Positions 29,348 to 45,872 of a DNA stretch of 59,710 bases are shown in pieces (position 1 is the first letter of the stretch; every line of letters starts with the position of its first letter). This DNA is from Chloroflexota bacterium (GTDB taxonomy: Bacteria > Chloroflexota > Limnocylindria > P2-11E): positions 1 to 59,710 of the forward strand of contig VBFY01000062.1 in assembly GCA_005889405.1 (NCBI GenBank), given 5' to 3'. The position numbers were made by a program, and so were the translations under genes. A model generated the notes under the pieces. It searched no databases. It was not told the DNA's origin and saw only the letters and a list, made by a program, of their open reading frames with translations.

Positions 29348-29796
29348 GCCGCATCGTTGCGCCGCTCGCCACGGTCGTGCTCATCGCGATCGGTGCGATC
29401 GAGGCGCGCGTGAGCGCGCAGCAGCTCGCGGAGACGGTCGGGCGCCCGCGCCTCGAAAGCGCGGGCGTGATGCTGACCGCCGCGGGTCTGCTCGCGAGCA
29501 CGGTCGTCTACCTCGTGCTCGGCCATCTCGCGGAGAACGACCGCGTGGCGCTGCGCGCCGGTGCGCTCACGGGCGCGCTCGCCGGGCTCATCGGTGGCAC
29601 GGCCCGCGCCTTCATCATCGACGACCCCGTCTCGGATCTCGTGACGCGATACGCGTCGGTCCCGGATTGGTTCGTTCCCGCGGCGCTGGCGGTGTTCGTC
29701 GCGCTCTCGTGCGCGGGGAGCGCGGTGGGCGGTGCGGCGCTCGCGTGGACCGGACGCAGACTCAGTCGAGCCGCGCGGTCGCGACCTCCTGCCTGA
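29344..29796 (+). CDS. Small integral membrane protein
   Basis: 150 residues with about four hydrophobic helices (VAPLATVVLIAIGAI, VMLTAAGLLASTVVYLVLG, RAGALTGALAGLIGG, WFVPAALAVFVALSCAGSAVGGAAL). No family recognised. The GTG at 29344 overlaps the MFS stop (GTGA), so the two are translationally coupled and may function together. Its 3' end overlaps the convergent HD-GYP gene by 35 bases. Confidence 0.7.
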   Translation: MSRIVAPLATVVLIAIGAIEARVSAQQLAETVGRPRLESAGVMLTAAGLLASTVVYLVLGHLAENDRVALRAGALTGALAGLIGGTARAFIIDDPVSDLVTRYASVPDWFVPAALAVFVALSCAGSAVGGAALAWTGRRLSRAARSRPPA

Positions 29797-30709
29797 CGCG
29801 CTCGATGCTGCCGTCCGCCTGCAGCGACTGGAAGATCGCGACGACCTCGGGGTCGAATTGCGCGCCAGAACCCGCGATGACCGCAGCCATGCCCTCTTCG
29901 ATCGACCACGCGGTCTTATACGGCCGCTTCGACGTGAGGGCATCGAAGACGTCGGCAACGGAGACGATCCGCGCGGCGAGCGAGATCCCGTCGCCCTTCT
30001 TCCCGTCTGGGTAGCCGCGCCCGTCCCAGCGCTCGTGATGCTCGCGCGCGATCGCGCGCGCGGTCTCGAAGAAGCGCGCGTCGCCGAGCATCACCTCGCC
30101 GTCGATGCAGTGCTGCTTGATGACCTCGAATTCCTCGGTCGAGAGGTGGTGCTCGCTCTGGAGGATGTGGTCGGGCGTGTGGATCTTGCCCACGTCGTGC
30201 ATGACGCTCGAGTAGCCGAATTCCTCGACGACCTGCGGCGGCAGCCCGAGACGCGTGCCGATCGCCTCGACATACTTCCGAACGCGCAGGAGGTGCGCTC
30301 CGGTCGTCTGGTCCTTGATCGTCGCGGCCAGAAGCAGGTGGCTGATGCCCTGAAGACCGGTGCGCCGGAGCTCCTCGTTCGCGATGCGCTCACTCTCGAG
30401 TGCGGTCTCGAGCTGCTCGCGCCGCTCGCGTTCGCTGCGCAGCATCTCGGCGAGATCCTCGGCGTACCGCGTGCTCTGCCGTTCGAGGAGGCGCATCTCG
30501 CGCAGCTTCGTCTCGTACTCGAGGCGCACTGACTGCTCGCGGCGGTAGACCTCGGCGAAGTCGCTTGCCATGCGGACGGCTTGCGAATTCGCCTGGTCCG
30601 CGACGCGGATCGCCTGCTGCAGCAGCTGGCGGAAGACCTCGCCGGCGACGGTCGAGCCCGCCTGCGGCACGCTGATATGGGGAGAGACTTCGATCACTTC
30701 GATCGACAT
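29762..30709 (-). CDS. HD-GYP cyclic-di-GMP phosphodiesterase with coiled-coil N-terminus
   Basis: 315 residues. Residues about 50-120 form a long charged coiled coil (RREQSVRLEYETKLREMRLL and onward), residues 120-315 an HD-GYP domain with intact MHDVGKIH (His171-Asp172) and HHERWDGRGYPDG. It should hydrolyse cyclic-di-GMP to pGpG or GMP. No receiver is attached; the separate receiver gene just upstream (30741-31112) could regulate it in trans. Last gene of the leftward signalling operon. An alternative ATG at 30733 adds eight residues. Confidence 0.92.
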   Translation of the reverse strand: MSIEVIEVSPHISVPQAGSTVAGEVFRQLLQQAIRVADQANSQAVRMASDFAEVYRREQSVRLEYETKLREMRLLERQSTRYAEDLAEMLRSERERREQLETALESERIANEELRRTGLQGISHLLLAATIKDQTTGAHLLRVRKYVEAIGTRLGLPPQVVEEFGYSSVMHDVGKIHTPDHILQSEHHLSTEEFEVIKQHCIDGEVMLGDARFFETARAIAREHHERWDGRGYPDGKKGDGISLAARIVSVADVFDALTSKRPYKTAWSIEEGMAAVIAGSGAQFDPEVVAIFQSLQADGSIERVRQEVATARLD

Positions 30710-30740
30710 CCGCTCGGGCCTTTCCTCCGGCACGGCTGGA

Positions 30741-31112
30741 TCAGCTGTGCGCGAGGATCCCGCGAATGGTGTCGATCAGCTCCAGCGGCCCGAAGGGCTT
30801 CGTGAGGTACTGGGTCGCGCCGACCGAGAATCCGGTCTTCTTGTCGCTCTCGCTCTCGTGGGCCGTCAGCATCACGACCGGGATGTCCTTGGTGCCGGGC
30901 TCGGACTTGAGCTGGCGGCAGACTTCGAAGCCGTTCGGCCCGGGTCCCATGTCGACGTCGAGGAGGACCAGATCCGGCTTCTCCGCGCGCGCGAGCTCGA
31001 GCGCCTCGGTGCCGTTCTTGGCCTCGAGGATCGTCCAGCCCTGCGTGGACAGGGTGATGCGGACCATCTGTCGGATGGGCACCAGATCGTCGGCAATGAG
31101 CAGTTTTGCCAT
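30741..31112 (-). CDS. Stand-alone response-regulator receiver
   Basis: 123 residues, a single CheY-like receiver: acidic pocket ADD (8-9), phospho-acceptor Asp52 (LVLLDVDMG), Thr in VVMLTAHE and Lys in YLTKPFGP. No output domain, so it must act through a partner, most simply the HD-GYP enzyme encoded 32 bases downstream. ATG 31112 has a TACCAT box (31120-31125) seven bases before it and no ribosome site, suggesting an internal leaderless start inside the operon. Confidence 0.92.
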   Translation of the reverse strand: MAKLLIADDLVPIRQMVRITLSTQGWTILEAKNGTEALELARAEKPDLVLLDVDMGPGPNGFEVCRQLKSEPGTKDIPVVMLTAHESESDKKTGFSVGATQYLTKPFGPLELIDTIRGILAHS

Positions 31113-31164
31113 GCGACGGATGGTAGCCGGGTCCTCCCGCAGCCGACCCCCCTCCCGTGGGGAG

Positions 31165-31869
31165 TTAGGCGCCACGGACGAGCACTTTCCCCCCGCGCGG
31201 GGAGGTCGGGCCCTGGCGCGTCCACGAATCCAGCGTCACAAGGCCGAGTCGAGCGGCCTCGGCGACCGCTTCCAGGCGGGAGTGCGCGCCAAGCTTCCGG
31301 AGTACCGCCTGAACGTGCGCGCGAAGCGTGGCCGTCGAGATGCCGAGGGCCGCGGCGGCCGTGGCGGTACTTGCTCCGCTCGCGAGCAGATGCAGGACCT
31401 CGAGCTCGCGCGGCGTGAGCGGTTCGGTCGCGGTCGCGGGCTCGCTGCGTTCCGAGAGCAGCAGGCGCTGCAGCTCGCTCGACGAGAACAGCACCTCGCC
31501 CGAGGCCGCGGCGCGCACCGCACCGACGACGTCGTTGAAGCCGCGCTCCTTCGTGAGATGTCCGGAAGCACCGGACCGCGCGACGTCCGCGAGCGTGTAC
31601 GCGCTGGGATCGCCCGTGAGGACGACGATCGCGACCTGCGGGAGCGACGCACGCACCGCGCGGGCGAGATCGGCGCCGGTGCCGTCGGGCAGGTGGTAGT
31701 CCGCGAGTACGACGTCGGGTCGGGCCTCGTCGAGCGCGGCGATAGCGCTGCGCAGATCGTGCGCCACGGCCACGACATCGATGTCGTCGGCCTCGCGCAT
31801 CGCGACGCGGAGGAGCTCGGCGAAGAGCCGCTCGTCGTCGACGATCATCACGCGCACGCGGTCGCTCAC
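31165..31869 (-). CDS. NarL/LuxR-type DNA-binding response regulator
   Basis: 234 residues: N-terminal receiver (IVDDERLF, Asp in VVLADYHLPDG, Lys in GHLTKERG) and a C-terminal LuxR helix-turn-helix (LTPRELEVLHLLASGASTATAAAALGISTATLRAHVQAVLRKL, by landmarks LTPRELEVL and STATLRAHV). It is the only obvious DNA-binding protein of the signalling operon and the likely transcriptional output. GTG 31869 overlaps the stop of the receiver/HD-GYP gene (GTGA). Confidence 0.94.
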   Translation of the reverse strand: MSDRVRVMIVDDERLFAELLRVAMREADDIDVVAVAHDLRSAIAALDEARPDVVLADYHLPDGTGADLARAVRASLPQVAIVVLTGDPSAYTLADVARSGASGHLTKERGFNDVVGAVRAAASGEVLFSSSELQRLLLSERSEPATATEPLTPRELEVLHLLASGASTATAAAALGISTATLRAHVQAVLRKLGAHSRLEAVAEAARLGLVTLDSWTRQGPTSPRGGKVLVRGA

Positions 31870-33194
31870 TGCTCCGCTTCCTGACCGGCGGTGCGCACCT
31901 GCGCGGCGAGTGCCGCGACCACCGCGGGATCCAGCTCGCCGCGACCGACAGCCCCTTGAAGGATGCGCACGGCCTCCGGCTCCGAGACCGCGGCGCGGTC
32001 CGGGCGATCGGCGAGGAGCGCCTCGAAACGATCGGCAACGCTGACGACGCGGACCTCGAGCGGGATCTTCTCGGCAGTGAGGTGATCCGGATAGCCATGC
32101 CCGTCGAGGCGTTCGTGGTGCCAGCGGATGATCGGCAGGATCGGCGCGAGCGGCGTCACGCGGCGGAGAAGGTCCTCGCCGAGCAGCGGGTGTTGCTCGA
32201 GCGACTCGCGCTCGTGGGCGGTGAGCTCGCCGGCCTTGTGCACGATCGGTGGCGGCAGCTTCGCGTTGCCGATGTCGCGCAGCAACGCGCCGAGCCGGAT
32301 CGTCCCGACCGCCGCCTGGTCGAGCCCGAGCAACCCCGCGACCGAGACCGCGCGCGCCGCGACGCGCTCGCTGTGACCCATCATGAACCGGTCGTGCGCC
32401 TCGAGCGACGTGGCGAGCGTGATGAGCGCATCGGCCGCCGCGCCCATGTCGCGCACGAGACGCATCTCGCGCACGAGGAGCTCGGCGTGACGCGCGAGAT
32501 CGCCGTCGAGCCGCGCGAACTCGGCCGCCGGGGTCTCCGAGCCCCTGGCGATCACGAGGATGGCGGCGCCGTCATCGGCGAGGTCGCGGTCCGGCGTCGC
32601 GCTGTCGTCGACGAGGATGAGATCCACGGCGACCGAGCCGTCCTGGATGATGTCGAACCGCGGTGCCAGCAGCTTCTCCGCCTCGGCGCGGCGCGCCGGG
32701 TCCTTGAGCGTGATGGCGGCAACCGGCCGGCCGCGTTCCGGACGCTCCGCCTGTGGCTCGAGTCGCGGCGGGCGCGCGTTGCGCGACTGCAACAGCACGG
32801 CGTCGATCCGGGCCAGGAGCTCCGCGGCATTCCAGGGCTTGGTCACGTAGTCGGCCGCGCCGCACGAAAGACCGCGCACCTTGTCGACGACCTCGCCCCG
32901 AGCCGACAGGAAGATCACGGGGATGTGCGCGATCGAGCCGTCGCTCTTGATACGGAGGCACACGTCGTAACCGTCGGTATCCGGCAGCATCACGTCGAGC
33001 AGCACCAGATCGGGGACGATCTGACGCACGAGCGCGAGGCCCTCGCCACCGTCGCGACCGACGACGACCTTCATACCGTTCGCCTGCAGCCGGCGCTGAA
33101 GGACGTCGGCCGACGCCGGATCGTCTTCGACGACCACGACGCTCGTCGGGATCGTCGAGGATCCGGGTGGCATCGTCACGGCGAAGTCTTTCAC
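31866..33194 (-). CDS. Receiver plus degenerate HD-GYP protein
   Basis: 442 residues: a receiver (VVEDD, Asp67 in LVLLDVMLPDTDGYD, Lys in YVTKPWNAAE), a linker of about 110 residues and an HD-GYP domain. The GYP part HHERLDGHGYPDHL is intact and HSERVAARA, EQHPLLGEDLL and SVADRFEAL are kept, but the HD motif reads RDIGN (Arg306-Asn310) instead of HDxGK. Loss of the metal-binding His predicts a non-catalytic or altered enzyme, perhaps a cyclic-di-GMP receptor. ATG 33194; its end and start overlap the flanking genes by 4 bases. Confidence 0.92.
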   Translation of the reverse strand: MKDFAVTMPPGSSTIPTSVVVVEDDPASADVLQRRLQANGMKVVVGRDGGEGLALVRQIVPDLVLLDVMLPDTDGYDVCLRIKSDGSIAHIPVIFLSARGEVVDKVRGLSCGAADYVTKPWNAAELLARIDAVLLQSRNARPPRLEPQAERPERGRPVAAITLKDPARRAEAEKLLAPRFDIIQDGSVAVDLILVDDSATPDRDLADDGAAILVIARGSETPAAEFARLDGDLARHAELLVREMRLVRDMGAAADALITLATSLEAHDRFMMGHSERVAARAVSVAGLLGLDQAAVGTIRLGALLRDIGNAKLPPPIVHKAGELTAHERESLEQHPLLGEDLLRRVTPLAPILPIIRWHHERLDGHGYPDHLTAEKIPLEVRVVSVADRFEALLADRPDRAAVSEPEAVRILQGAVGRGELDPAVVAALAAQVRTAGQEAEQ

Positions 33195-33948
33195 TGCGCC
33201 ACGCTCTTCTGCTCCTCGCCGAGCAGATGACGCAGCGCGACGACGAATTTCGACGGACGCTCGTTCACCATGTGGTCGCGGATGTAGGAGTAGAGCTCAT
33301 CCGCCCAGCGCGGAAGCTCCTGGTACCACTTCACTTCGATGATCACACCGGGCTCGCGCGCGATGACCGGGCCGATCCGGCACGGGAGCGAGCTCTCGTC
33401 GTTGGCCACCCACGGCACCGCCAGGTACATGAGGTTGTGGTCCGCGGTGATGCGCATGCTCGCATCCGGCGCTGAGTACGCGATCCGGTTGTACTGCGTG
33501 ACCACGACCGGCCGGACTCCGCCCGCGATCGTCCGCTCGGCGCGCTCGACGAGGCCGTTCTCGTCGCGCGGCAGCTTCTGCTCGCCGCGGAGGTACGCGG
33601 GGAGCGACATCGTCGGCACCTCGTAGCGCTCCTTGAACGACGTGCTCGCGGAGTCGTCCTTCATCTCGAGGTACACGGATGCACCCGCGAGGATCTCGTT
33701 CGGCCTCGTGCGGTGATACTCGCGGACCCGGAGCTGGAGCGCCTGCCCGGCCTCGGCGGACCGAAAGATGCGCCAGTCGTAGCTGTCGAGGTACGCCGTC
33801 GTCGACCACTGATAGGGCCGATCGTCGCGGTCGAGCGGCAGGTACGTGCCGCTGGTGCGGAGCGCGAGTCGGGCGACGGCCTCGTTCACCAGAAAGCGGT
33901 GCTCGTACCGACGTGCGCTGTCACTGGTCGCGTCGAGGACGATGTTCT

Positions 33949-33952
<4 letters not shown>
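33191..33952 (-). CDS. VTC-domain (polyphosphate polymerase-like) protein
   Basis: 253 residues forming one VTC tunnel domain: YEHRFLV, STTAYLDSYDWRIFR, the paired arginines LQLRVREY, acidic/lysine strand YLEMKDDSASTSFKER, QYNRIAY, MRITAD, IIEVKW and C-terminal SKFVVAL. These correspond to the basic and acidic residues that line the yeast Vtc4 catalytic tunnel, so polyphosphate synthesis from ATP is plausible. There is no TM segment and no SPX domain. Bacterial VTC proteins usually sit beside DUF4956 or CotH genes; here it is embedded, with 4-base overlaps, among two-component genes. Confidence 0.88.
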
Positions 33953-35498
<1,546 letters not shown>

Positions 35499-35502
<4 letters not shown>

Positions 35503-37814
35503 GACCGTACCGCCGTCGCCGCGCCCGCGAGCCCGCCATCGGCGAGCGCCGTGGCGCGCACGCGTACTGGCAACGTGAACAGGAAGCTGCTGCCGACGCC
35601 CACCGTGCTGTCGACCCAGATACGGCCGCCGTGCAGCGCGATGAGGCGCTTCGAGATCGCAAGGCCGAGGCCGGTCCCGCCGTAGCGGCGTGTCGTGGAC
35701 GCGTCGACCTGGCGGAACTCATCGAAGATGTACGTCTGCGCTTCCGGCGGGATGCCCACGCCGGTGTCGACCACGCCCAGGGTGATCCACCCGTCGACCA
35801 CCGTCGCCCGGATCGTGACGCCACCGTGCTCGGTGAACTTCACAGCGTTCGCCACGAGGTTCACGAGCACCTGGCGGATGCGCGCGCGGTCCGCCCACGC
35901 GGCCGGCAGTGCGCTCGCGACGTCGGCGCGGAGGCTGAGCGCCTTCGCATCGGCGCTCGCCCGCATCAGCTCGATGACGTCATCGACGACGAGCGGGATG
36001 TCGACCTCCTCGACGTTGAGCTCCATCTTGCCGGCCTCGATCTTCGCGAGGTCGAGCAGTCCGTTGATCAGGCTGAGAAGGTTGTCGGCGGCCTGCACGA
36101 CACGCTCGAGGTCGGCGGTCTGCTGCTCGGTGAGATCGCCGTCGAGCCCGTCGAGCATCAGCTTCGTGTAGCCGATGATCGCGTTCATCGGGGTGCGCAG
36201 CTCGTGGCTCACGGATGCGAGGAACTCGCTCTTCAGACGGTTCGCGCGCTCGAGCTGCAGGTTGTTGTCTTTGAGCTCGTTGACGAGATCCGCGTTCTCC
36301 TTCGCCACGCTCACGAGACGGGCGATGGTGCGCAGCGCGCGCGCCTCCGTGTCGGTGATCTCGCGCGGCCTCTTGAAGTACGCGGAGAGGAGGCCAGCTG
36401 CGCGGCCGCGAGCGGACAGCGGGATGTGCGCGACGTGCGGCATCGGGCTCTGTGGCACGTGCAGGTGCTGGATCTGGTTCGGGTCGTAGACCGGATTCAC
36501 CAGGACCCGCGTCGCGAGCATGACGGCCGTGTCTGGGTCGATGCCGATCGTCGTCGGCGCGATGAGCCGGCCGCCGGATCCCAGCGGCGCACCTGGTGCG
36601 TCCTCGCGGATGACGATCGACGCGCCGTCGGCGTGGAACAGGGCGACCATACGTGACAACGACTCGGCGAAGATTCGCTCGCGGTCGGTGACACCGACGA
36701 CGGCGTCGGCCACTTCGTTCACCGTGCGGACCTCAGCGAGGTATTCCTGCTGTGCACGCTCACGTTCGCTCAGCGACCGGGCCATGGTGTCGAACGCGCG
36801 CTCGAGCGTGCCGATCTCGTGATGCGAGCGCTGGCGGATGCGCACGCCGAGGTCTCCGGCTTCGATCTGCTGGGCGGCGGCCGCGAGGTCCTCGAGCGGC
36901 CGCGTCATCGCCGTGGCCGAGCGGTACGCGAAGAACGTGACGAGCGCGATCAGGCTGGCCGCGAGGACGAACAGGATCACGAGCAGCGTCCGCTGCGAGG
37001 CGTTCAGGGCGTCGAGCGGCAGCAAAACGGCCAGCACCCCGAGATTCGCCCGCTGTCCGACGACCTGGAAGATGCCGTAGTAGCTCCTCCCGCCGATCGT
37101 CACGTCCTGCACGAAGACGTCGCGTGGGGCGCCGTCGACCTGCTCCAGCGTCGGGAAGACCGTGTCGTCCGGCAGGGACGTGGTGTACGCACGCACCTTG
37201 CCGTTCCAGATCAGCGCGAGCTGCGCGTCGCTCTTGGTGTTGATCGTCTTGAGGTAATCGTTTCCGAGGATCGTGCCGACCTCGAGGAAGCCTATCTTCT
37301 CGACGTCGGCGCCCCGGATCTCCCAGATAGCGCGGATCACGAGGCCCCGCCCCGGTTCGTCGGACAGGATCCACGACTGTTGCACGCCCGCCTTGGCGTC
37401 GACGACAAGCTGCGGCAGCAGCGTCTCCCCCGGGACGAAGTCCTGAGCGCCGGCGACAAGGACTCCGTCCTTATCCGCCACGCTCATGAACTGGACTCCC
37501 AGGCGCGATTTCTGCGGCAACAGGAATGCCTCGAGCGCGCTGCGGTTCTTCGCCTCCGCGAGCTCGCGCGTCGTCGGTAGGCCGGCGATCAGGGACGCCG
37601 CCCGCAACGCCAACGACGCCTGGTCCTGGATGTCGTTCTTCGCGGCGACCGCGACGATGCTTGCCTCGTCTTCGAACTGCTTCGCCACGAGATCGTTGGA
37701 TTCGTAGAGGGCGACGGCCGCGAGTACCACGAGGGCACCCACGGCCACCGCCACTGTCCGACCGACGAGCGCGCGAAGGAGACTCGGCGCGAAGAGCTGG
37801 TTGAGGAATTCCAC
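35499..37814 (-). CDS. Membrane sensor histidine kinase (dCache-HAMP-GAF-HisKA-HATPase)
   Basis: 771 residues from GTG 37814, which has AGGA eight bases upstream. TM1 (about 16-38), an extracytoplasmic dCache-like domain of about 240 residues, TM2 (LLVILFVLAASLIALVTFF), HAMP (RPLEDLAAAAQQIEAGDLGVRI), a GAF-like domain with DPNQIQHLHVPQSP, HisKA with His537 (SHELRTPMNAIIGY), and HATPase with NLVANAVKFTE, DTGVGI and GGTGLGLAISKR. It starts 11 bases after the stop of the PstS-like gene, so that lipoprotein may present its ligand to the sensor domain. Confidence 0.93.
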
Positions 37815-37824
37815 GAAGACCGTC

Positions 37825-38664
37825 CTAGAGGCCGGCCAGGATCTTCTGCCCCTCGGCACCCTTCACGAAGTCGATGAAAGCCTTGATCGTCGGCTTCACC
37901 TTTGCCGGCTCCGGGTGGTACACGAAGTACAGGGGACGCCGGATCGGGTAGGTGCCGTTCGCGAGGGTCTCACGGGTCGCGGCGATGTTGTCGATCGTGA
38001 GTAGGCCCACGTCGACGGTGCTGAACGCCTTCGCGTTCATCGTCATCATCCCGATCGCGTCCTTGAATGAACCAATGGCCTTGAGCGTCTCATCGATCTG
38101 GAACACCTCGACGGCGTCCTTTGCGTACGCCGGCTTGGTCGAGCCGAAGAAGTACGACTCGAACGCCGAGCGCGTCGAGGACTCGGGCTCGCGCAGCAGC
38201 ACGCGGATCTTGCCGGGCGTGCCGCCGACGTCCTTCCAGTCCGTGATCTGGCCGGTGAAGATCTTCGCGACCTGATCCTTGGTGAGCGCCTTGACCGGGT
38301 TCGTCGCGTTCACGCCGACGCCCGTGCCCGATGCACCGATAGCCACGGTCTCGACGGTGCCCTTCTCAGGGGCCTTGAGGTCGCGGCTGATGAAGCCGAG
38401 GTCGACCGTTCCGCTGACGGTGAGCGACACGCCTGCGTCTGACCCAACGTCGTCAAATCCCTGCCAGATCACCGTCGGGTGGACGGCTGAGAATCCTGAG
38501 GTCAGCGCTTTCACGGCGTCGAGCGCGCCGCCGCCGCCCTTGGTGACGTAGGTCCCGGCGAGCGGATCGGCGGTCGGTTTGCTGGCGATCGGGCTGGCAC
38601 CGCCGCAGCTCGCGGCGAACAGCGCCGCCAGGGCGATGTACAGGCATTTGCGCAGAAGCGTCAT
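37825..38664 (-). CDS. PstS-like phosphate-binding lipoprotein
   Basis: 279 residues. Lipobox FAASC (Cys about 20), then a type-2 periplasmic binding fold as in PstS of Gram-positives: YVTKGGGGALDAVKALTSGF, LGFISRDLKAPEKG, NPVKALTKDQVAKIFTGQITDWKDVGG, and the phosphate-contact region LLREPESSTRSAFESYFFG. ATG 38664 has AGGA upstream. It is the first gene of the signalling operon and no PstC, PstA, PstB or PhoU gene is adjacent, so a sensory rather than transport role is likely. Phosphate is inferred; another oxyanion is possible. Confidence 0.9.
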   Translation of the reverse strand: MTLLRKCLYIALAALFAASCGGASPIASKPTADPLAGTYVTKGGGGALDAVKALTSGFSAVHPTVIWQGFDDVGSDAGVSLTVSGTVDLGFISRDLKAPEKGTVETVAIGASGTGVGVNATNPVKALTKDQVAKIFTGQITDWKDVGGTPGKIRVLLREPESSTRSAFESYFFGSTKPAYAKDAVEVFQIDETLKAIGSFKDAIGMMTMNAKAFSTVDVGLLTIDNIAATRETLANGTYPIRRPLYFVYHPEPAKVKPTIKAFIDFVKGAEGQKILAGL

Positions 38665-38725
38665 GTTGTCCTTGTCCTCCAGGGCCGGCGCCATGCCGGT
38701 TAAGCCAATTGCGGGAAGTGTGGCT

Positions 38726-38754
38726 CCGCTAACTGGCCTGTCTATCCCTCTAAC
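38726..38754 (-). promoter_or_regulatory. GTTAGNGG direct repeats before the PstS-like gene
   Basis: On the minus strand GTTAGAGG (38747-38754) and GTTAGCGG (38726-38733) repeat at a 21-base interval, two helical turns, about 65-90 bases before the ATG at 38664. GGCTCC/GGAGCC arms (38722-38727, 38762-38767) enclose them. Same-face repeats suit a response-regulator dimer, but no known Pho box is matched. Confidence 0.4.
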
Positions 38755-39085: not shown

Positions 39086-40063
39086 GTGCTGGTCCTGGAC
39101 AAGCGAGAGGTCGAGTCGCTCCTCGATCCGGACGCCCTCCGCGCCGCCGTGGCGGCTGCGCTGTCTGACCTCTCCGCGGGACGCGCCTCGATGCCCACCC
39201 GCATTGCCGCGATGGTCGCGGAACGCGACGCGCTCCTCGCCGCGATGCCGGCTTACCTGCCGAGCGCAGGCGCGCTGACGACGAAGCTGGTCTCGCTCTT
39301 TCCGCGGAACACCGATCGGCCGACGCACCAGGCGGTGATCGTCGCCTTCGATCCGCTGACGGGGACGCCAGCCGCGCTCATGGACGGCGAGGCGATCACC
39401 GCAGCGCGCACCGCCGCCGGCTCCGCGCTCGCCACCGACCTCCTCGCGCGCAAAGACGCTGCGACGCTCGCGGTGCTCGGCGCCGGCGTCCAGGCGCGCG
39501 CTCATCTGCGCGCGTTGCCGCGCGTGCGTCCGTTCCGCGAGATCGTCATCGGCGCACGGGACGCGTCGAAGGCGTCGGTGCTCGCGCGGGAGATCGCGTC
39601 AGCGACCGGACTGCCGGTGCGCGCGGCGTCCTTCTCGGACGCGGTGCGCGTGGCGGATGTCGTGTGCGCATGCACGCACAGCGCGGAGCCGGTCGTGCGG
39701 CGCGACTGGCTGCGCCCCGGCACGCACGTGAACTCCGTCGGCTACAACACCGCGGGCCGCGAGGTCGACGGCGAGACCGTCGCGGCGTCCCGGGTCGTGG
39801 TGGAATCGCGCGCCGCGGCGCTTGCTCCACCACCGGGTGGCTCGAACGATCTCCTCTGGCCGATCCGCGACGGGCTCATCGCCGCGACGCACGTGCACGC
39901 CGAGCTCGGCGAGCTCGTATCTGGCGCACGACCGGGACGCGCCGACGCGACGCAGCTCACGCTCTACAAATCCGTCGGAGTCGCGGTCGAGGACGCCGCG
40001 GCCGCCGCTCTCGTGCTCAGGCTCGCGCGCGAACGCGGCGTTGGCAGGACGATCGAGCTCTAG
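39086..40063 (+). CDS. Ornithine cyclodeaminase / mu-crystallin family dehydrogenase
   Basis: 325 residues from GTG 39086. The substrate-side residues lie in RIAAMV and GALTTKLVSLFPRNTDRPTHQAVIVAFDP; GEAITAARTAAGSALATDLLARKD is the family signature; the Rossmann motif is VLGAGVQARAHLRAL. Members are NAD(P)-dependent and act as ornithine cyclodeaminase, alanine dehydrogenase or ketimine/imine reductase; sequence alone does not choose. Single gene, divergent from DUF2277, no amino-acid pathway neighbour. Confidence 0.9.
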   Translation: MLVLDKREVESLLDPDALRAAVAAALSDLSAGRASMPTRIAAMVAERDALLAAMPAYLPSAGALTTKLVSLFPRNTDRPTHQAVIVAFDPLTGTPAALMDGEAITAARTAAGSALATDLLARKDAATLAVLGAGVQARAHLRALPRVRPFREIVIGARDASKASVLAREIASATGLPVRAASFSDAVRVADVVCACTHSAEPVVRRDWLRPGTHVNSVGYNTAGREVDGETVAASRVVVESRAAALAPPPGGSNDLLWPIRDGLIAATHVHAELGELVSGARPGRADATQLTLYKSVGVAVEDAAAAALVLRLARERGVGRTIEL

Positions 40064-40199: not shown

Positions 40200-42005
40200 T
40201 TAGTACTCGCCGCCGGTGCCTTTGCGAGGGCCCTCGAGCAATTGGCCGACGCCGCGTTGCTCGCCACGTAGCGCGTCGAGCACACGAAGCGCTTCGTCGA
40301 TGGTGAGACCGCGCCGGAAGTCGTCGAGCGCCGGCCGCAGCTCCGGCGATGCCTGCGCGTTCGGGTCGGTCGAGTTCGTCGGATCGCTCGTCGGCTCCTG
40401 CGGCTGCCCGGGATTCTGGCCGGGCTGCGCCGACGCCCCGGCGCTCGGCTGACCACTCTGTGCCGGGCCCTGCGCGCCGGGATTCGGGCTGCCGGGCTGT
40501 CGGGGTCCCGGGCCGGACTGCTGGCCCGGTTGCGCCGGCCGGGCCGAGAGGATGCGCTGGACGATCTCGAGGTTGAACTTCGCGTCCCGATCGGTCGGAT
40601 CCATGCGCAGCGCCTCGCGGTACGCGTCACGCGCGTCCTCGTACCGACCCATGCGGAAGAGCGTGTTCCCCCGGTCGTACTGCGCGATCGCGCGGAGATG
40701 CAGATCCTTTCCGTCGATGGCCTTGCCGTACTCCGCGAGCGCGCGGGGGTATTCGGCCATCTTGTGGAGCGCGTTCGCAGCGTTGATGGCGAGCTCGGGC
40801 AAATCGGGCTGGTCCAGCTGCAGATCCCTATATGCCGCCAGCGCTCCGGCGTAATTGCCGCCCGCGAACAGGCCGTTCGCGGTCTCATTCGAAAGCGCGG
40901 CGTCGCCGCACGCGATCGCCCACAGCGCGGCGGAGCCGATCGCGATGCCGAGGATGCGGCGTCCGCGGCGCGCGGCCGGCCGGCCGAGACCGCGCGGCGA
41001 GGGCATCGCGCGCCGCTCCGAGATGAGCCACTCGAGCAGCAGCAGCGCGACGGCGATGGTGACCATCGGCGCGGATCGTTCGTCGGGTACCGAGCCCGCG
41101 TCGTCGAGCGGCTCGACGGCCTCCATCGTGCGCAGCGCGCGGGCGAGATCCCCGATCACTCCGTCGTTGCCGATGTAGTGGAAGTAGCTGCCGCCGCCCT
41201 TGTCGGCGACCGACCGTAGCGTCTCCTCGACGAGGTGGGTCACCACGGGGACGCCGCCGGCATCGCGCAGGTAGCCCGTGAACTTCCCGTCGTTCGCGTC
41301 GTAGGTCGGGATCTGGCCACCGGCCTCCGTGCCGACGCCGACCGTGTAGATGCGCGCGCCCACGAGGTCGCTGGCCTCGGGCACGTCGCTGTTCGTGATC
41401 TCACCGTCGGATACGAGCACGATCGCACGCTGCCGTAGCGGATCGAGATCGGCCGGAAACGCGCCGAGCGATGACTCGAGACCCGAGCGAAGCGAGGATC
41501 CCTGCTGAAGCTTCACGCCGCGCCCCGAGTTATCGAGGACCTCACCGAGGATGCGCGGATCCGTTGTCGCCGGATACCGCACGGTCCCCTGGCCGGCGAA
41601 GAGCACCAGCGCGACGCGGCTGCCGATCATCTGGCGTCCGAGCTCTTCCGCGAAGTGACGCGCGGCGCGCAGTCGGTCGGGCTCGACATCGCGGGCGGCC
41701 ATGCTCTGCGATACGTCCACGGCGAGGACGATGTCGACGCCCAACCTGCGAGCCGCGCGCGCGCGCAGGTCGACGTACGGACCGGCGAGCGCGATCACCA
41801 GGCTCGCGAGCGCGACGAGGAGGAGCGCCGACTTGAGCAGCCAGCGCGCACCACTGCGCGAGACCAGCGGCGTCGCGCCGCCGAACGATCGCAGCGCGCG
41901 GATGCGCGCGCGGTACGCAAGCGTGACGAGCGCCGCGACGAGCGGGACCGCAAGGAGGAGGAGCAACAGCTCCGGCCGCGCGAAGCCGACCGCGGGAAGG
42001 TTCAC
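40200..42005 (-). CDS. BatB/BatC-like fusion: VWA domain plus TPR
   Basis: 601 residues. Two N-terminal TM helices (LLLLLLAVPLVAALVTLAY; SALLLVALASLVIALAG), a von Willebrand A domain with MIDAS DVSQS (VLAVDVSQSMAARDVEPDRL), a third TM before about residue 330 and a fourth (ILGIAIGSAALWAIACG), then TPR units (YAGALAAYRDLQLDQPDLPELAINAANALHKMAEYPRALAEYGKAI by landmark) and a Gly/Pro/Gln-rich linker before DEALRVLDALRGEQ. It joins BatB and BatC in one chain. Last gene of the MoxR cluster, overlapping BatA by 4 bases. Confidence 0.88.
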   Translation of the reverse strand: MNLPAVGFARPELLLLLLAVPLVAALVTLAYRARIRALRSFGGATPLVSRSGARWLLKSALLLVALASLVIALAGPYVDLRARAARRLGVDIVLAVDVSQSMAARDVEPDRLRAARHFAEELGRQMIGSRVALVLFAGQGTVRYPATTDPRILGEVLDNSGRGVKLQQGSSLRSGLESSLGAFPADLDPLRQRAIVLVSDGEITNSDVPEASDLVGARIYTVGVGTEAGGQIPTYDANDGKFTGYLRDAGGVPVVTHLVEETLRSVADKGGGSYFHYIGNDGVIGDLARALRTMEAVEPLDDAGSVPDERSAPMVTIAVALLLLEWLISERRAMPSPRGLGRPAARRGRRILGIAIGSAALWAIACGDAALSNETANGLFAGGNYAGALAAYRDLQLDQPDLPELAINAANALHKMAEYPRALAEYGKAIDGKDLHLRAIAQYDRGNTLFRMGRYEDARDAYREALRMDPTDRDAKFNLEIVQRILSARPAQPGQQSGPGPRQPGSPNPGAQGPAQSGQPSAGASAQPGQNPGQPQEPTSDPTNSTDPNAQASPELRPALDDFRRGLTIDEALRVLDALRGEQRGVGQLLEGPRKGTGGEY

Positions 42006-42970
42006 GGCGTCCTCCGGAAGACCGTGAGCGCCAGAAGGAACTGCAGCGCGAGAAGTCCGGCGCCGGCCGCCGCGAATGGCAGCGACGCGTCCTCGGTCGA
42101 GATGAAGGCACGCGTGCCGACCCGAGCCTTCTCGAGCGTCTCAATCTCGCGGTACACATCACGGAGCGCGGTCTCGTCGGAGGCCCGGAAATAAAGGCCG
42201 CCGGTCGTCTCGCTCATGCGCTTCATGAGCGCCTCGTCGACCTCGGCGCGCGAGCGCGCCGCGACGGCGCCGATCGTGTACAGGCGCACGCCGAGCAGCT
42301 TCGCGATCTGCGCCGCGTCGGTCGGCTGCACATCGCCGGCGTTGTTCTGCCCGTCCGTGAGGAGGATCGCGACCTTGCCGCGCGCCGAGGATTCGCGCAG
42401 CAGATTGAGGCCCGTCGCGAGCCCGGTCCCGATGGCCGTTCCGTCCCGAAGCGGACGGCCCGCCGTCACCGGCTGGACGAGGCGCTGCGCCGCGCCGTAG
42501 TCCAGCGTGAGCGGGCTCAGCACCATCGACTCGGCGCTGAAGATGACCACGCCGACGCGATCGTTCTTCAGGCCGTCGAGGAAGTCGTTGACGACGCGCT
42601 TGACGACGTCGATCCGCGGCTGGCCGCCGAGGTCCGGCGTGGTCATCGACGACGAAGTGTCGAGGACGATGACGATGTCGATCCCCTCTGCCGGAACGTC
42701 GAACGCGGCCTGCACGACGGACGGAGCGGCCAGCGCCACGATGAGCGCGGTCGCGGCCACCACACGCAGGGGCAGCAGCAGCCACCGCAGACGCACCCGC
42801 CAGCTGCCGCGCGCCCGCGGAACGAGCCCGAGCGAAGAGAACAGCACGCCGCCGCCTGGGCCGCGCTCGCGACGCAGCTCCAGGGCCGCGGCGATCACGA
42901 CGAGCACGAGCAAAGCGAGCGCCCACGGCGCGTCGAAGCGGACCTCCGTCCCGAGGATGCGCGCGCTCAT
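42002..42970 (-). CDS. BatA-like VWA membrane protein
   Basis: 322 residues: N-terminal TM (APWALALLVLVVIAAALEL), a second TM (LLLPLRVVAATALIVALA), VWA domain with MIDAS DTSSS (IVIVLDTSSSMTTPDLGGQ), downstream Thr and Asp sites in LRDGTAIGTGLATG and AILLTDGQNNAG, and a C-terminal TM. It belongs with MoxR, DUF58 and BatB in envelope stress or metal-insertase-like complexes assembled by MoxR chaperones. Stop/start overlaps of 4 bases on both sides. Confidence 0.9.
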   Translation of the reverse strand: MSARILGTEVRFDAPWALALLVLVVIAAALELRRERGPGGGVLFSSLGLVPRARGSWRVRLRWLLLPLRVVAATALIVALAAPSVVQAAFDVPAEGIDIVIVLDTSSSMTTPDLGGQPRIDVVKRVVNDFLDGLKNDRVGVVIFSAESMVLSPLTLDYGAAQRLVQPVTAGRPLRDGTAIGTGLATGLNLLRESSARGKVAILLTDGQNNAGDVQPTDAAQIAKLLGVRLYTIGAVAARSRAEVDEALMKRMSETTGGLYFRASDETALRDVYREIETLEKARVGTRAFISTEDASLPFAAAGAGLLALQFLLALTVFRRTP

Positions 42971-43923
42971 TGCGGTCGGAGGGCGGCGATCTCGTACTCC
43001 TCAGCGGTGGCCGCGCGCCGCACCACCTCCAGCGCCTGGCGCACCGCGTTCTGCGCGTGCGCGGGATACGGGATCGCGTGGCGGAAGCGGACCTCGTCGC
43101 CCTCACGGAGGATCTCGTAGATCGCGCTCGCTTGCGCGCGGTCGACGCCCGCGCGCTCCATGGCGGCGCGAAGCTCGCGACTGGTGCGACCCGGGTCGAT
43201 GCCGAAACGTTGGACCGCGTACTGGCGCAGGCTCGCGGTGAGGAGCGCGTAGTGCTCGGCCGTCTTCCCCTTTTCCGGAAGGCGCTGCTCGGCGAGCGCA
43301 TCGAGCTCGCGCAGCGCGCGCTGCACCGGCGTGAGGCGCTCCGCGGCGGGGATGCGGTCGCGTCGCCTCAGCAGGACCCAGAAGATCACGCCGGCCAGCG
43401 CCGTGAACGCGGCCGCAGCCAGAACGCCGAGCGCGATGCGCCCGAGCTTCGCGGCGAGCGCCTCGGGTAGGTCGAGCTGCGGCTTCAGCGGTTTCACATC
43501 CGTCGTGTCCTCGCCGTCCTTGATGACTGACGCGATGTGGAGGACGAGCGGCGTCGTCGTCGCCACGCCGTTCTCGCCATTCGGCCCGGCGTACGGGATC
43601 GAGATGGGCGGGACGCTGATATCGCCGACGACCCACCCGGTGACCCGGTAGCGGAAGGTCCAGCGTGTGACGCCGCCGGGGCGGGTCGAGCGGCCGGACG
43701 GGAGGACCTCCAGGACCTCGAGATCGCCGACGGTGTGCGCGATCGTCGGGTCGCTGACCTGGTACCCCGCTTCCGCATCGGCGATCACCGTCAGGAACGC
43801 CCCGTCCCCGACGGTGATCGTGGTCCGGTCGAGGGTCGCCGCCGCGGTCACCGCATCGGCGGCGGCGGCCCCGCTCGCCATGACGAACGGCAACGCGAGG
43901 GCCAGCGTGAGGACGAGCCGCAT
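42967..43923 (-). CDS. BatD-like membrane protein
   Basis: 318 residues. Signal peptide (about 1-22, ending GAAAADA), two beta-sandwich regions (TLDRTTITVGDGAFLTVIADAEAGYQ; VTRWTFRYRVTGWVVGDISVPPISIPYAG), a TM helix (IALGVLAAAAFTALAGVIFWVLL, about 198-220) and a helical cytoplasmic tail that includes LTASLRQYAVQRFGIDPGRTSRELRAAM. Layout matches BatD/DUF4381 proteins of the aerotolerance-type cluster. ATG overlaps the DUF58 stop by one base (TGATG). Confidence 0.82.
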   Translation of the reverse strand: MRLVLTLALALPFVMASGAAAADAVTAAATLDRTTITVGDGAFLTVIADAEAGYQVSDPTIAHTVGDLEVLEVLPSGRSTRPGGVTRWTFRYRVTGWVVGDISVPPISIPYAGPNGENGVATTTPLVLHIASVIKDGEDTTDVKPLKPQLDLPEALAAKLGRIALGVLAAAAFTALAGVIFWVLLRRRDRIPAAERLTPVQRALRELDALAEQRLPEKGKTAEHYALLTASLRQYAVQRFGIDPGRTSRELRAAMERAGVDRAQASAIYEILREGDEVRFRHAIPYPAHAQNAVRQALEVVRRAATAEEYEIAALRPQ

Positions 43924-44846
43924 CAGTTGCGCCGCGTCCGCGCGTTGAACAGCGCCATGAGCGTGGGGACGAACGGTCGATCGGTGTAGAGGTCCACGCT
44001 GTCGATCTTCAGGCGCGCGAGGGCCTGCCGGCGCTCCGTACGTCGACGCCGAGCGGTGCTGGCGTACTCGTCGCGCAATCGTCCGTCGGCCGTGTCGACA
44101 TACGCGATGTGGCCCGTCTCGGCATCCTCGAGCGCGACGACGCCGACGTTCGGGAGCTCGAGCTCGCGCGGGTCGTTGAGCGCGAGTGCGATGACGTCGT
44201 GCTTCCGGCCGAGCATGCGAACCGCCGGATCGTCGACGAGGCCGACGTCGAGGAAATCGGAGATGAGGAACACCACGCTGCGTTTCTTCGTGATGTTCGT
44301 GAGGAAGCGGGCCGCGTCGGTCATCTCGGTGCGCACGCGGCGCGGCGGCGCGAACAGAAGTTCGCGGATCACGTGCAGGAGATGTTCGCGCCCGCGGCGC
44401 GAGGGCATCCATTCCTGGAGTCCCTCGGCGAAACGGAGGAGCCCGACGCGGTCGTGACTCCGCATCGCGGCCATCGCGAGCAGCGCCGCGACCTCCGCCG
44501 CGAGATCGCGCTTGCTCTGATCGACCGAACCGAACCACGACGACGCGGAGACGTCGACCGCCAGCAGGATGTTGAGCTCGCGGTCCTCGCGGAACTTCTT
44601 GATGAAGGGCGTGCCCATTCGAGCCGTGACGTTCCAGTCGATGCTGCGGATGTCGTCGCCCGGCTCGTACTCGCGCACCTCTTCGAACTCGAGCCCCGAC
44701 CCGCGGAAGACGCTCCGATAGGTGCCGAGCAGCGCTTCGTCAGCGAGGATGCGCGCCTTGATCTCGACCTGACGGATGCGCCGCAGCACGTTCGCTGGGA
44801 GGGCCTGATCGCCCTGGACGGCGTGAGCGCGTGCCGTGGCGACCAC
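43923..44846 (-). CDS. DUF58 domain protein
   Basis: 307 residues with the DUF58 core SGLEFEEVREYEPGDDIRSIDWNVTARMGTPFIKKFREDRELNILLAVDVS (landmarks YEPGDDIRSIDWN and LAVDVSASSW), which contains a VWA-like MIDAS. Proteins of this type partner MoxR ATPases. No TM segment here: soluble. The GTG at 44846 starts 2 bases after the moxR stop. Confidence 0.93.
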   Translation of the reverse strand: MVATARAHAVQGDQALPANVLRRIRQVEIKARILADEALLGTYRSVFRGSGLEFEEVREYEPGDDIRSIDWNVTARMGTPFIKKFREDRELNILLAVDVSASSWFGSVDQSKRDLAAEVAALLAMAAMRSHDRVGLLRFAEGLQEWMPSRRGREHLLHVIRELLFAPPRRVRTEMTDAARFLTNITKKRSVVFLISDFLDVGLVDDPAVRMLGRKHDVIALALNDPRELELPNVGVVALEDAETGHIAYVDTADGRLRDEYASTARRRRTERRQALARLKIDSVDLYTDRPFVPTLMALFNARTRRN

Positions 44847-44848
44847 GG

Positions 44849-45841
44849 TCAGGGGAGCGGGACCTTGTCCAGCACCTTCGCGATGACGGACTCGGGCGTG
44901 ATCTCCTCCGCCTCGGCCTGGTAGGTCACGATGAGACGGTGACGCATGACGTCCGGCGCGACGGCCTTCACGTCGTCCGGCAGGACGTAGTCGCGCCCTT
45001 CGAGGAAGGCGTTCGCGCGCGCGGCGAGCGAGATGAAGATCGACGCGCGCGGTGACACGCCGTACGCGATCATCGGTCGGAGCTCGCTCAGGCCGAATTG
45101 CTCCGGTTCGCGCGTCGCGAACACGATGCGCACGACGTAGTCCTTGAGCGAGTCATCCATATGGATCTGCTTCACCGCGGCGCGCGCATCGAGCACCGCC
45201 TTCGGCGAGGCGACGCGGCGGACCTGCGGGATCTCCCCGATCGTCTGGCGGTCCATGATCTCGCGCTCTTCCTGCTGTGAGGGATAGCCGATGACGACCT
45301 TCATCATGAAGCGGTCGACCTGCGCCTCCGGAAGGCGATACGTCCCTTCGTGCTCGATCGGATTCTGCGTCGCGAGCACCATGAACAGCTCACCGAGCGG
45401 ATGCGTGGTCCCGCCGATGCTCACCTGCTTCTCCTGCATCGCCTCGAGGAGCGCGCTCTGCACCTTGGGTGGGGCGCGGTTGACCTCGTCGGCGAGGAGG
45501 ATGTCGGTGAAGATCGGACCCAGTCGCGGCCGGAACGTCTGGTCGGCGGGGTTGTAGATCATCGTGCCGTTGAGGTCCGCCGGGAGCAGGTCCGGCGTGA
45601 ACTGGACGCGCTTGAAGCTCGCCTCGATCGTGTCCGACAGCGTCTTCACCGCGAGCGTCTTCGCGAGGCCGGGCACGCCCTCGATGAGCAGGTGACCGTT
45701 GCAGAGGAGTCCCAGCAGCAGCCGGTTCACGAGGTAGTCCTGGCCGACGATGACCTTACGGATCTCGTGCAGGACCGGCGCGATGAAGTCGCCGCGCCGC
45801 AGGACCGCGTCGTTCGAGGTCGGCGGCCGATACGTCTTCAT
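44849..45841 (-). CDS. MoxR-family AAA+ ATPase
   Basis: 330 residues. Walker A is the MoxR variant EGVPGLAKTL, Walker B ILLADEVNRAPPKVQSALLEAM, sensor-1 LATQNPIEHEGTYRLPEAQVDRFMMK. It acts as a chaperone that remodels the VWA partners encoded downstream. ATG 45841 is preferred because a TACGCT box (45851-45856) lies 9 bases upstream; the frame has another start at 45850. Head of the moxR-DUF58-batD-batA-batB/C operon. Confidence 0.95.
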   Translation of the reverse strand: MKTYRPPTSNDAVLRRGDFIAPVLHEIRKVIVGQDYLVNRLLLGLLCNGHLLIEGVPGLAKTLAVKTLSDTIEASFKRVQFTPDLLPADLNGTMIYNPADQTFRPRLGPIFTDILLADEVNRAPPKVQSALLEAMQEKQVSIGGTTHPLGELFMVLATQNPIEHEGTYRLPEAQVDRFMMKVVIGYPSQQEEREIMDRQTIGEIPQVRRVASPKAVLDARAAVKQIHMDDSLKDYVVRIVFATREPEQFGLSELRPMIAYGVSPRASIFISLAARANAFLEGRDYVLPDDVKAVAPDVMRHRLIVTYQAEAEEITPESVIAKVLDKVPLP

Positions 45842-45872
45842 CGCTCGCACAGCGTACTGGCTGGGTGTGTCG

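Follow-up and report, generated by a model that had tools for sequence, protein, structure and literature searches.

The DNA analysed here (the window, 59,710 nucleotides from a Chloroflexota bacterium) is contig 67 of a 114-contig metagenome-assembled genome (MAG) of 3.05 Mb in total, whose relatives are soil MAGs bearing the label Chloroflexi. It contains an operon of eight open reading frames (ORFs), all on the minus strand, encoding a PstS-fold lipoprotein, two histidine kinases, a VTC-domain protein, response regulators and HD-GYP proteins. An ORF listing and a Pfam domain scan found the eight frames at the places, and with the domains, claimed by an initial annotation of the window:

37825-38694, minus strand: PstS-fold substrate-binding lipoprotein (Pfam PBP_like_2, 3.5e-31; likely start at 38664)
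35499-37859, minus strand: membrane sensor histidine kinase with a dCache-like periplasmic domain, HAMP, GAF, HisKA and HATPase (Pfam)
33949-35502, minus strand: soluble REC-REC-HisKA-HATPase hybrid kinase (Pfam)
33191-33952, minus strand: VTC-domain triphosphate-tunnel protein, polyphosphate-polymerase-like (Pfam VTC, 2e-23)
31866-33194, minus strand: REC-HD-GYP protein with a degenerate HD motif (Pfam; alignment of 16)
31165-31869, minus strand: NarL-type response regulator, REC plus LuxR/GerE helix-turn-helix (Pfam)
30741-31175, minus strand: stand-alone CheY-like receiver, the lone REC (Pfam)
29762-30733, minus strand: receiver-free HD-GYP protein, HD and GYP motifs intact (Pfam HD_5, 3.8e-34)

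The initial annotation had described most of these genes as joined by 4-base overlaps. This is exact at four of the seven junctions (kinase/hybrid, hybrid/VTC, VTC/REC-HD-GYP and REC-HD-GYP/NarL), fails at the lone REC/HD-GYP junction, which is a 7-base gap, and varies with the start codon chosen at the PstS/kinase and NarL/REC junctions. No ABC genes occur among the operon ORFs, in agreement with the reported lack of PstCAB and PhoU, and an NCBIfam scan of the eight proteins gave no specific name for any of them.

Conservation was assessed in an order-level set of 29 genomes and a class-level set of 148 further genomes, where G000 denotes the window's own genome, g1 its genus, g2 and g8 other genera, and f2 a second family. 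The VTC protein was present in 16 of the 29 genomes of the order and in none of the 148 other genomes of the class examined, and a scan of the genome collection with the VTC profile returned matches only from the same order. When the neighbourhoods of the 15 other VTC genes were extracted and compared with the window operon, the operon order was identical in all of them as far as the contigs extend. The common arrangement runs lipoprotein, membrane kinase, REC-REC kinase, VTC, REC-HD-GYP, NarL-type regulator, lone REC and HD-GYP, with an extra gene in most relatives between the REC-REC kinase and VTC. In G001, from the second family, the operon is divided between two contig ends, one carrying the first half with the extra gene and the other the VTC half. 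The window proteins share mean identities of 52-76% with their g2 orthologues, and the 4-base overlaps recur across genera.

The genes on either side of the operon keep their synteny between g1 and g2. When eight window flank genes were looked for around the operon in g8 (L021) and family f2 (L032), no match appeared; the linkage of the operon genes therefore outlasts regional synteny and is operon-specific in g8 and f2. The initial annotation had called for a neighbourhood comparison in relatives, and the gene set is indeed conserved together in 15 other genomes. The eight ORFs constitute a real conserved operon.

Sensory and cyclic di-GMP proteins

The lipoprotein start assigned earlier, 38664, is an internal ATG of ORF 37825-38694 that begins a normal lipoprotein signal peptide, and the lipobox (AASC) is kept in the orthologues. 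A profile search of the PDB matched the PstS structures 4q8r and 4gd5 (approximately 2e-35), and 4gd5 was also the top Foldseek match (E 4e-15) of a structural model that was used for the fold match only, and not for the pocket, because of its low confidence (mean predicted local distance difference test score, pLDDT, 62.7). The phosphate-contact SR is kept in 11 of 12 sequences, R168 and T174 of the R..SGT loop are invariant, and the S and G positions of this loop are occupied by S or A. The window's genome has no other TIGR02136-type match than this lipoprotein, in whose PstS fold part of the phosphate pocket is lost. Phosphate is our leading guess for its ligand, another oxyanion being a real alternative.

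Wherever the contig covers them, the exported binding-protein gene adjoins the membrane kinase gene, with a regulator in the operon. AioX, an arsenite-binding protein that feeds the kinase AioS, provides a precedent for a binding-protein/kinase architecture (PMC3834237). The AioX-AioS-AioR system resembles the operon in that a periplasmic binding protein is encoded beside the kinase it is thought to feed, whereas the operon has more relay parts, NarL-type and HD-GYP outputs, and a VTC enzyme. PstSCAB-PhoU-PhoR, similarly, couples a PstS-fold binding protein with a histidine kinase and response regulators; the operon, in contrast, lacks a permease, an ATPase and PhoU (searches of the genome for PstC and PhoU brought up no classical ones), and it has a dCache-HAMP-GAF kinase and outputs that include VTC and HD-GYP.

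The dCache domain of the membrane kinase scored 19.4 bits in the window, against a Pfam cut-off of 25.7, and 33.3 bits in the orthologue at L027. The phospho-acceptor histidine and ATP-binding boxes of this kinase are conserved in the orthologues, as are both REC aspartates and the HisKA histidine of the hybrid kinase, the REC aspartate and helix-turn-helix of the NarL-type regulator, and the aspartate and lysine of the lone REC. The REC-REC hybrid kinase is predicted to be the hub of a phosphorelay.

The two HD-GYP proteins differ in the state of their motifs. In the last gene of the operon (29762-30733), HDVGK and HHERWDGxGYP are invariant in an alignment of 13 sequences, and its product is likely, by its motifs, a cyclic di-GMP (c-di-GMP) phosphodiesterase. 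In the REC-HD-GYP protein (31866-33194), the HD histidine is replaced by R or K, and the catalytic lysine by N, H or Y, in all 16 sequences. The equivalent HD histidine of PmGH is a metal ligand whose replacement by alanine abolishes activity, and the lysine is putatively catalytic (PMC4159591). Because the REC-HD-GYP protein has lost both residues, of which the histidine is needed in PmGH, it is predicted to be a conserved non-enzyme, probably a pseudo-phosphodiesterase or receptor, leaving the last HD-GYP as the only credible phosphodiesterase. The general statement of the initial annotation that HD-GYP degrades c-di-GMP is thus credible for the last gene and does not extend to the fused protein. 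The host can presumably make c-di-GMP, since the window's genome has 14 GGDEF domains. With respect to RpfG-type REC-HD-GYP phosphodiesterases, the fused protein shares their domain order and the intact HD-GYP gene lies beside a lone REC; in contrast to them, the HD motif of the fused protein is dead and the intact HD-GYP has no receiver of its own.

The VTC protein and its NTT-like companion

The VTC domain scored 83.6 bits against a Pfam cut-off of 23 in a protein of 253 amino acids (aa), and the order-level VTC profile matched yeast Vtc4 structures (6.4e-7). The residues equivalent to Vtc4 R264, R266 and E426 are R75, R77 and E206, invariant in 16 sequences. Two further positions, equivalent to K281 and R361 of Vtc4, are also conserved in an alignment of Chloroflexota VTCs with a Vtc4 fragment. 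HMMER instead aligned R264 and R266 with R81 and R83, which are likewise invariant. In the yeast enzyme, R264, R266 and E426 are the residues mutated to inactivate it (PMC9911596). As in the yeast VTC complex, the VTC domain of the operon carries the R264/R266/E426 equivalents, would be expected to act as an ATP-dependent polymerase and seems to be accompanied by a membrane partner. It differs in being bacterial, in lacking SPX and a Vtc1-type transmembrane domain, in being controlled apparently by a phosphorelay and not by inositol pyrophosphates, and in having an NTT-like protein as its candidate partner.

At other Chloroflexota VTC loci, DUF4956 was found in seven of the eight tested, often together with CotH. 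No PstS-like match occurred in those neighbourhoods, and the proteins matched there by the REC-HD-GYP query were short, about the size of a response regulator. The usual bacterial VTC-DUF4956-CotH loci also pair VTC with a small conserved set, sometimes with two-component genes adjacent, whereas the operon VTC has no adjacent DUF4956 or CotH and stands with a PstS-like protein, two kinases, receivers, HD-GYP proteins and, in most relatives, the NTT-like carrier.

This carrier is the product of the extra, ninth gene, which lies outside the window operon and was overlooked by the initial annotation. It is a membrane protein of approximately 495 aa, encoded between the REC-REC kinase and VTC in g2 and g8. 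Since three of the four genera carry the gene inside the operon, the window's genus having it elsewhere, the ancestral operon likely had nine genes. Its place in the window's genome is:

G000:C89:26169-27656 (L105:9167-10648), minus strand: NTT-like carrier

There it sits among unrelated genes (succinyl-CoA-ligase-like, oxidoreductase-like). The NTT-like protein was found in all 16 VTC genomes, so that VTC and NTT-like proteins occur in exactly the same 16 of the 29; elsewhere in the order, the threshold was reached only by a weak, partial match in G026.

No Pfam (TLC included) or NCBIfam entry matched the NTT-like protein over cut-off, and a PDB search by sequence gave no match. For its AlphaFold model (pLDDT 79), Foldseek ranked AtNTT1 first and second (9j3l and 9j3m, E 8.4e-7) and Chlamydia NTT1 sixth (9j3n), other MFS folds matching as well. 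Distantly related proteins encoded in these genomes have HEAT and cNMP domains, and one such protein exceeds the Pfam TLC cut-off. As modelled, the ninth gene encodes an ATP/ADP-translocator-like (NTT-fold) membrane protein, which resembles the NTT/TLC translocators in its best fold matches and differs from them in falling below the Pfam TLC and NCBIfam cut-offs and in sharing an operon with VTC. At L111:6447-11005 (G002:C47), the gene for an NTT-like protein with HEAT and cyclic-nucleotide-binding domains has a second PstS-like gene on its strand at a distance of about 1 kb, a hint that cooperation between PstS-like and NTT-like proteins may be more widespread. A 494-aa VTC neighbour in L165, suspected of being the same carrier, is actually a secreted, non-membrane protein. 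Some operon or carrier genes of the draft MAGs (L023, L031, L109 and L112) look frameshifted or split, probably through assembly errors.

Phosphate genes elsewhere and surroundings of the operon

PPK1 was not detected in any of the 16 VTC genomes. PPK2 exceeded its cut-off only in G016 and G018, of which only G016 carries the operon, and in 15 of the 16 operon genomes no polyphosphate-polymerase candidate other than VTC was detected. PstC exceeded its cut-off in six genomes, namely one of the 16 with the operon (G016) and five of the 13 others; a full Pst system was not detected in 15 of the 16 operon genomes, and the window's genome has no PstC over cut-off. Classical PhoU was almost confined to Pst-bearing genomes, although the VTC genome G004 also had one strong match, and weaker PhoU matches elsewhere lie in frames of about 550 aa. 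The only clear PhoU domains of the window's genome are part of a Na+/Pi cotransporter (L178:460-2112, G000:C89), a likely route of phosphate uptake in a genome with no detected Pst. This context fits a role in phosphate sensing and storage without proving it.

Upstream of the lipoprotein gene lies a candidate promoter or operator element:

38740-38753, minus strand: conserved box TTAGAGGGATAGAC

The exact 14-mer of the box occurs once in the window. AGAGGGATAGAC precedes the lipoprotein gene in the window and, as an exact match, the operon of many relatives, the box being shared between genera. Divergent to the operon is an ornithine cyclodeaminase/mu-crystallin family gene (39086-40063), syntenic in g1 and g2, and a Bat-like cluster of MoxR AAA ATPase, von Willebrand A and TPR genes occupies 40200-45850, also upstream. 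In g2 (L022-L027), a divergent kinase and receiver, absent in the window, adjoin the operon upstream of the lipoprotein gene; this receiver is about 60% identical to the first REC of the hybrid kinase.

Interpretation and alternatives

We propose that these genes form a binding-protein-coupled phosphorelay operon controlling a polyphosphate module of VTC and NTT-like proteins, with a c-di-GMP arm, and we give this reading a probability of roughly 0.45. The secreted PstS-fold lipoprotein would bind an oxyanion, most likely phosphate, outside the cell and, loaded or empty, would contact the dCache-like domain of the membrane kinase, as gene adjacency and AioX/AioS-type systems suggest. Phosphate may then pass between the membrane kinase, the REC-REC kinase and the three response regulators, all of which retain their phospho-sites. 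Transcriptional output would proceed via the NarL-type regulator, possibly at the conserved upstream box, and the intact HD-GYP protein would remove c-di-GMP through the lone receiver, with the non-catalytic REC-HD-GYP acting perhaps as a c-di-GMP sensor or adaptor. The VTC protein would make polyphosphate from ATP, working with the co-occurring NTT-like protein, and the operon may thus stand in for the Pst/PhoU sensing and PPK1 missing in these genomes. The initial annotation had linked external phosphate to polyphosphate and c-di-GMP; that link is retained insofar as the genes form one conserved set, and was over-specific with regard to ligand and enzymology. A bolder version appears rather doubtful to us: that a soil Chloroflexota lineage devoid of Pst/PhoU sensing and PPK1 uses a nine-gene PstS-fold/two-kinase system to control VTC and the NTT-like carrier, polyphosphate being made, and perhaps moved across the membrane, under the control of an external oxyanion and c-di-GMP.

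Several observations weigh against the proposed reading. The lipoprotein reaches 123.5 bits with TIGR02136 (PstS), below the curated cut-off of 206.6; pocket loop 1, GSTS in solved PstS proteins, is GGGA here, so that its hydroxyl residues are gone; and in g8 the SR becomes GR, with loss of the serine. The ligand may therefore differ or vary, and phosphate binding cannot simply be transferred from PstS, as the initial annotation had done. The strand-1 tunnel lysine of VTC is an arginine in all 16 members from the order and a lysine in the other Chloroflexota VTCs aligned, which is a conservative change; by Pfam, the 253 aa hold a VTC domain only, with no SPX and no Vtc1-type or other transmembrane domain; and phosphatases and cyclases are also found among the tunnel enzymes (PMC4641920). 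The anti-correlation with Pst is weak (Fisher p = 0.064, uncorrected for relatedness), G016 possesses both PstC and VTC, the perfect VTC/NTT-like co-occurrence is likewise uncorrected for shared ancestry, and the genomes compared are incomplete MAGs.

In one alternative, the operon is a real sensory unit but its lipoprotein responds to a ligand other than phosphate (arsenate, arsenite, a different oxyanion or an organic phosphate), and the VTC and c-di-GMP proteins take part in a general response to stress or in storage, on the model of AioX-AioS-AioR. The degenerate pocket, the sub-cut-off PstS score and the pocket residues that differ between genera speak for this reading, as does the established plan, known from AioXSR, of a binding protein that feeds a sensor kinase (PMC3834237). 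However, phosphate-bound PstS proteins are the nearest folds of known structure, the phosphate loop has an invariant R168 and T174, the genes examined near the operon included none recognised as arsenic genes, and phosphate compounds are what the remaining conserved parts (VTC, NTT-like) handle; we regard this alternative as unlikely, yet as a serious contender.

Less likely still is that VTC has another triphosphate-tunnel activity, as a polyphosphatase, nucleotide triphosphatase or nucleotide-signal enzyme, and that the operon, along with the NTT-like carrier, governs the turnover of nucleotides or tripolyphosphate. Tunnel enzymes are diverse, and the Vtc4-like protein AtTTM3 failed to polymerise (PMC4641920); the resemblance of the partner to an ATP/ADP translocator, the K-to-R change in strand 1 and the finding that the literature searched describes no bacterial VTC shown to make polyphosphate point the same way. 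Against this stand the VTC family and Vtc4 structure matches, the retention of the R264/R266/K281/R361/E426 equivalents, and the failure to detect any other full-length PPK-type polymerase in 15 of the 16 genomes. It is very improbable that the genes merely share a syntenic stretch of chromosome and do not function jointly. The flank genes kept in order between g1 and g2 would agree with it, but the flank test in g8 and f2, where the operon order persists with no flank match, led us to reject pure coincidence, and both the recurrence of the 4-base overlaps between genera and the position of the NTT-like gene, which is common to all VTC genomes and inside the operon in three of four genera, also argue against it; this explanation is largely refuted.

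Returning to the phosphorelay reading, the parts of the operon are of known kinds, and their combination is undescribed in the literature searched, where neither a PstS-kinase-c-di-GMP nor a VTC-c-di-GMP combination was found; the initial annotation had likewise known of no described system with this set. As far as sequence can indicate, the operon suggests an undescribed mode of phosphate-storage control. Little is known of what bacterial VTC proteins do, and here one of them is tied to a complete sensory system whose signal, enzyme and likely membrane partner can all be named and tested. The co-occurring NTT-like carrier suggests, as a concrete hypothesis, what the missing membrane part of a bacterial polyphosphate polymerase might be, and these genomes pose the wider question of how phosphate is sensed and stored in cells that lack Pst, PhoU and PPK1.

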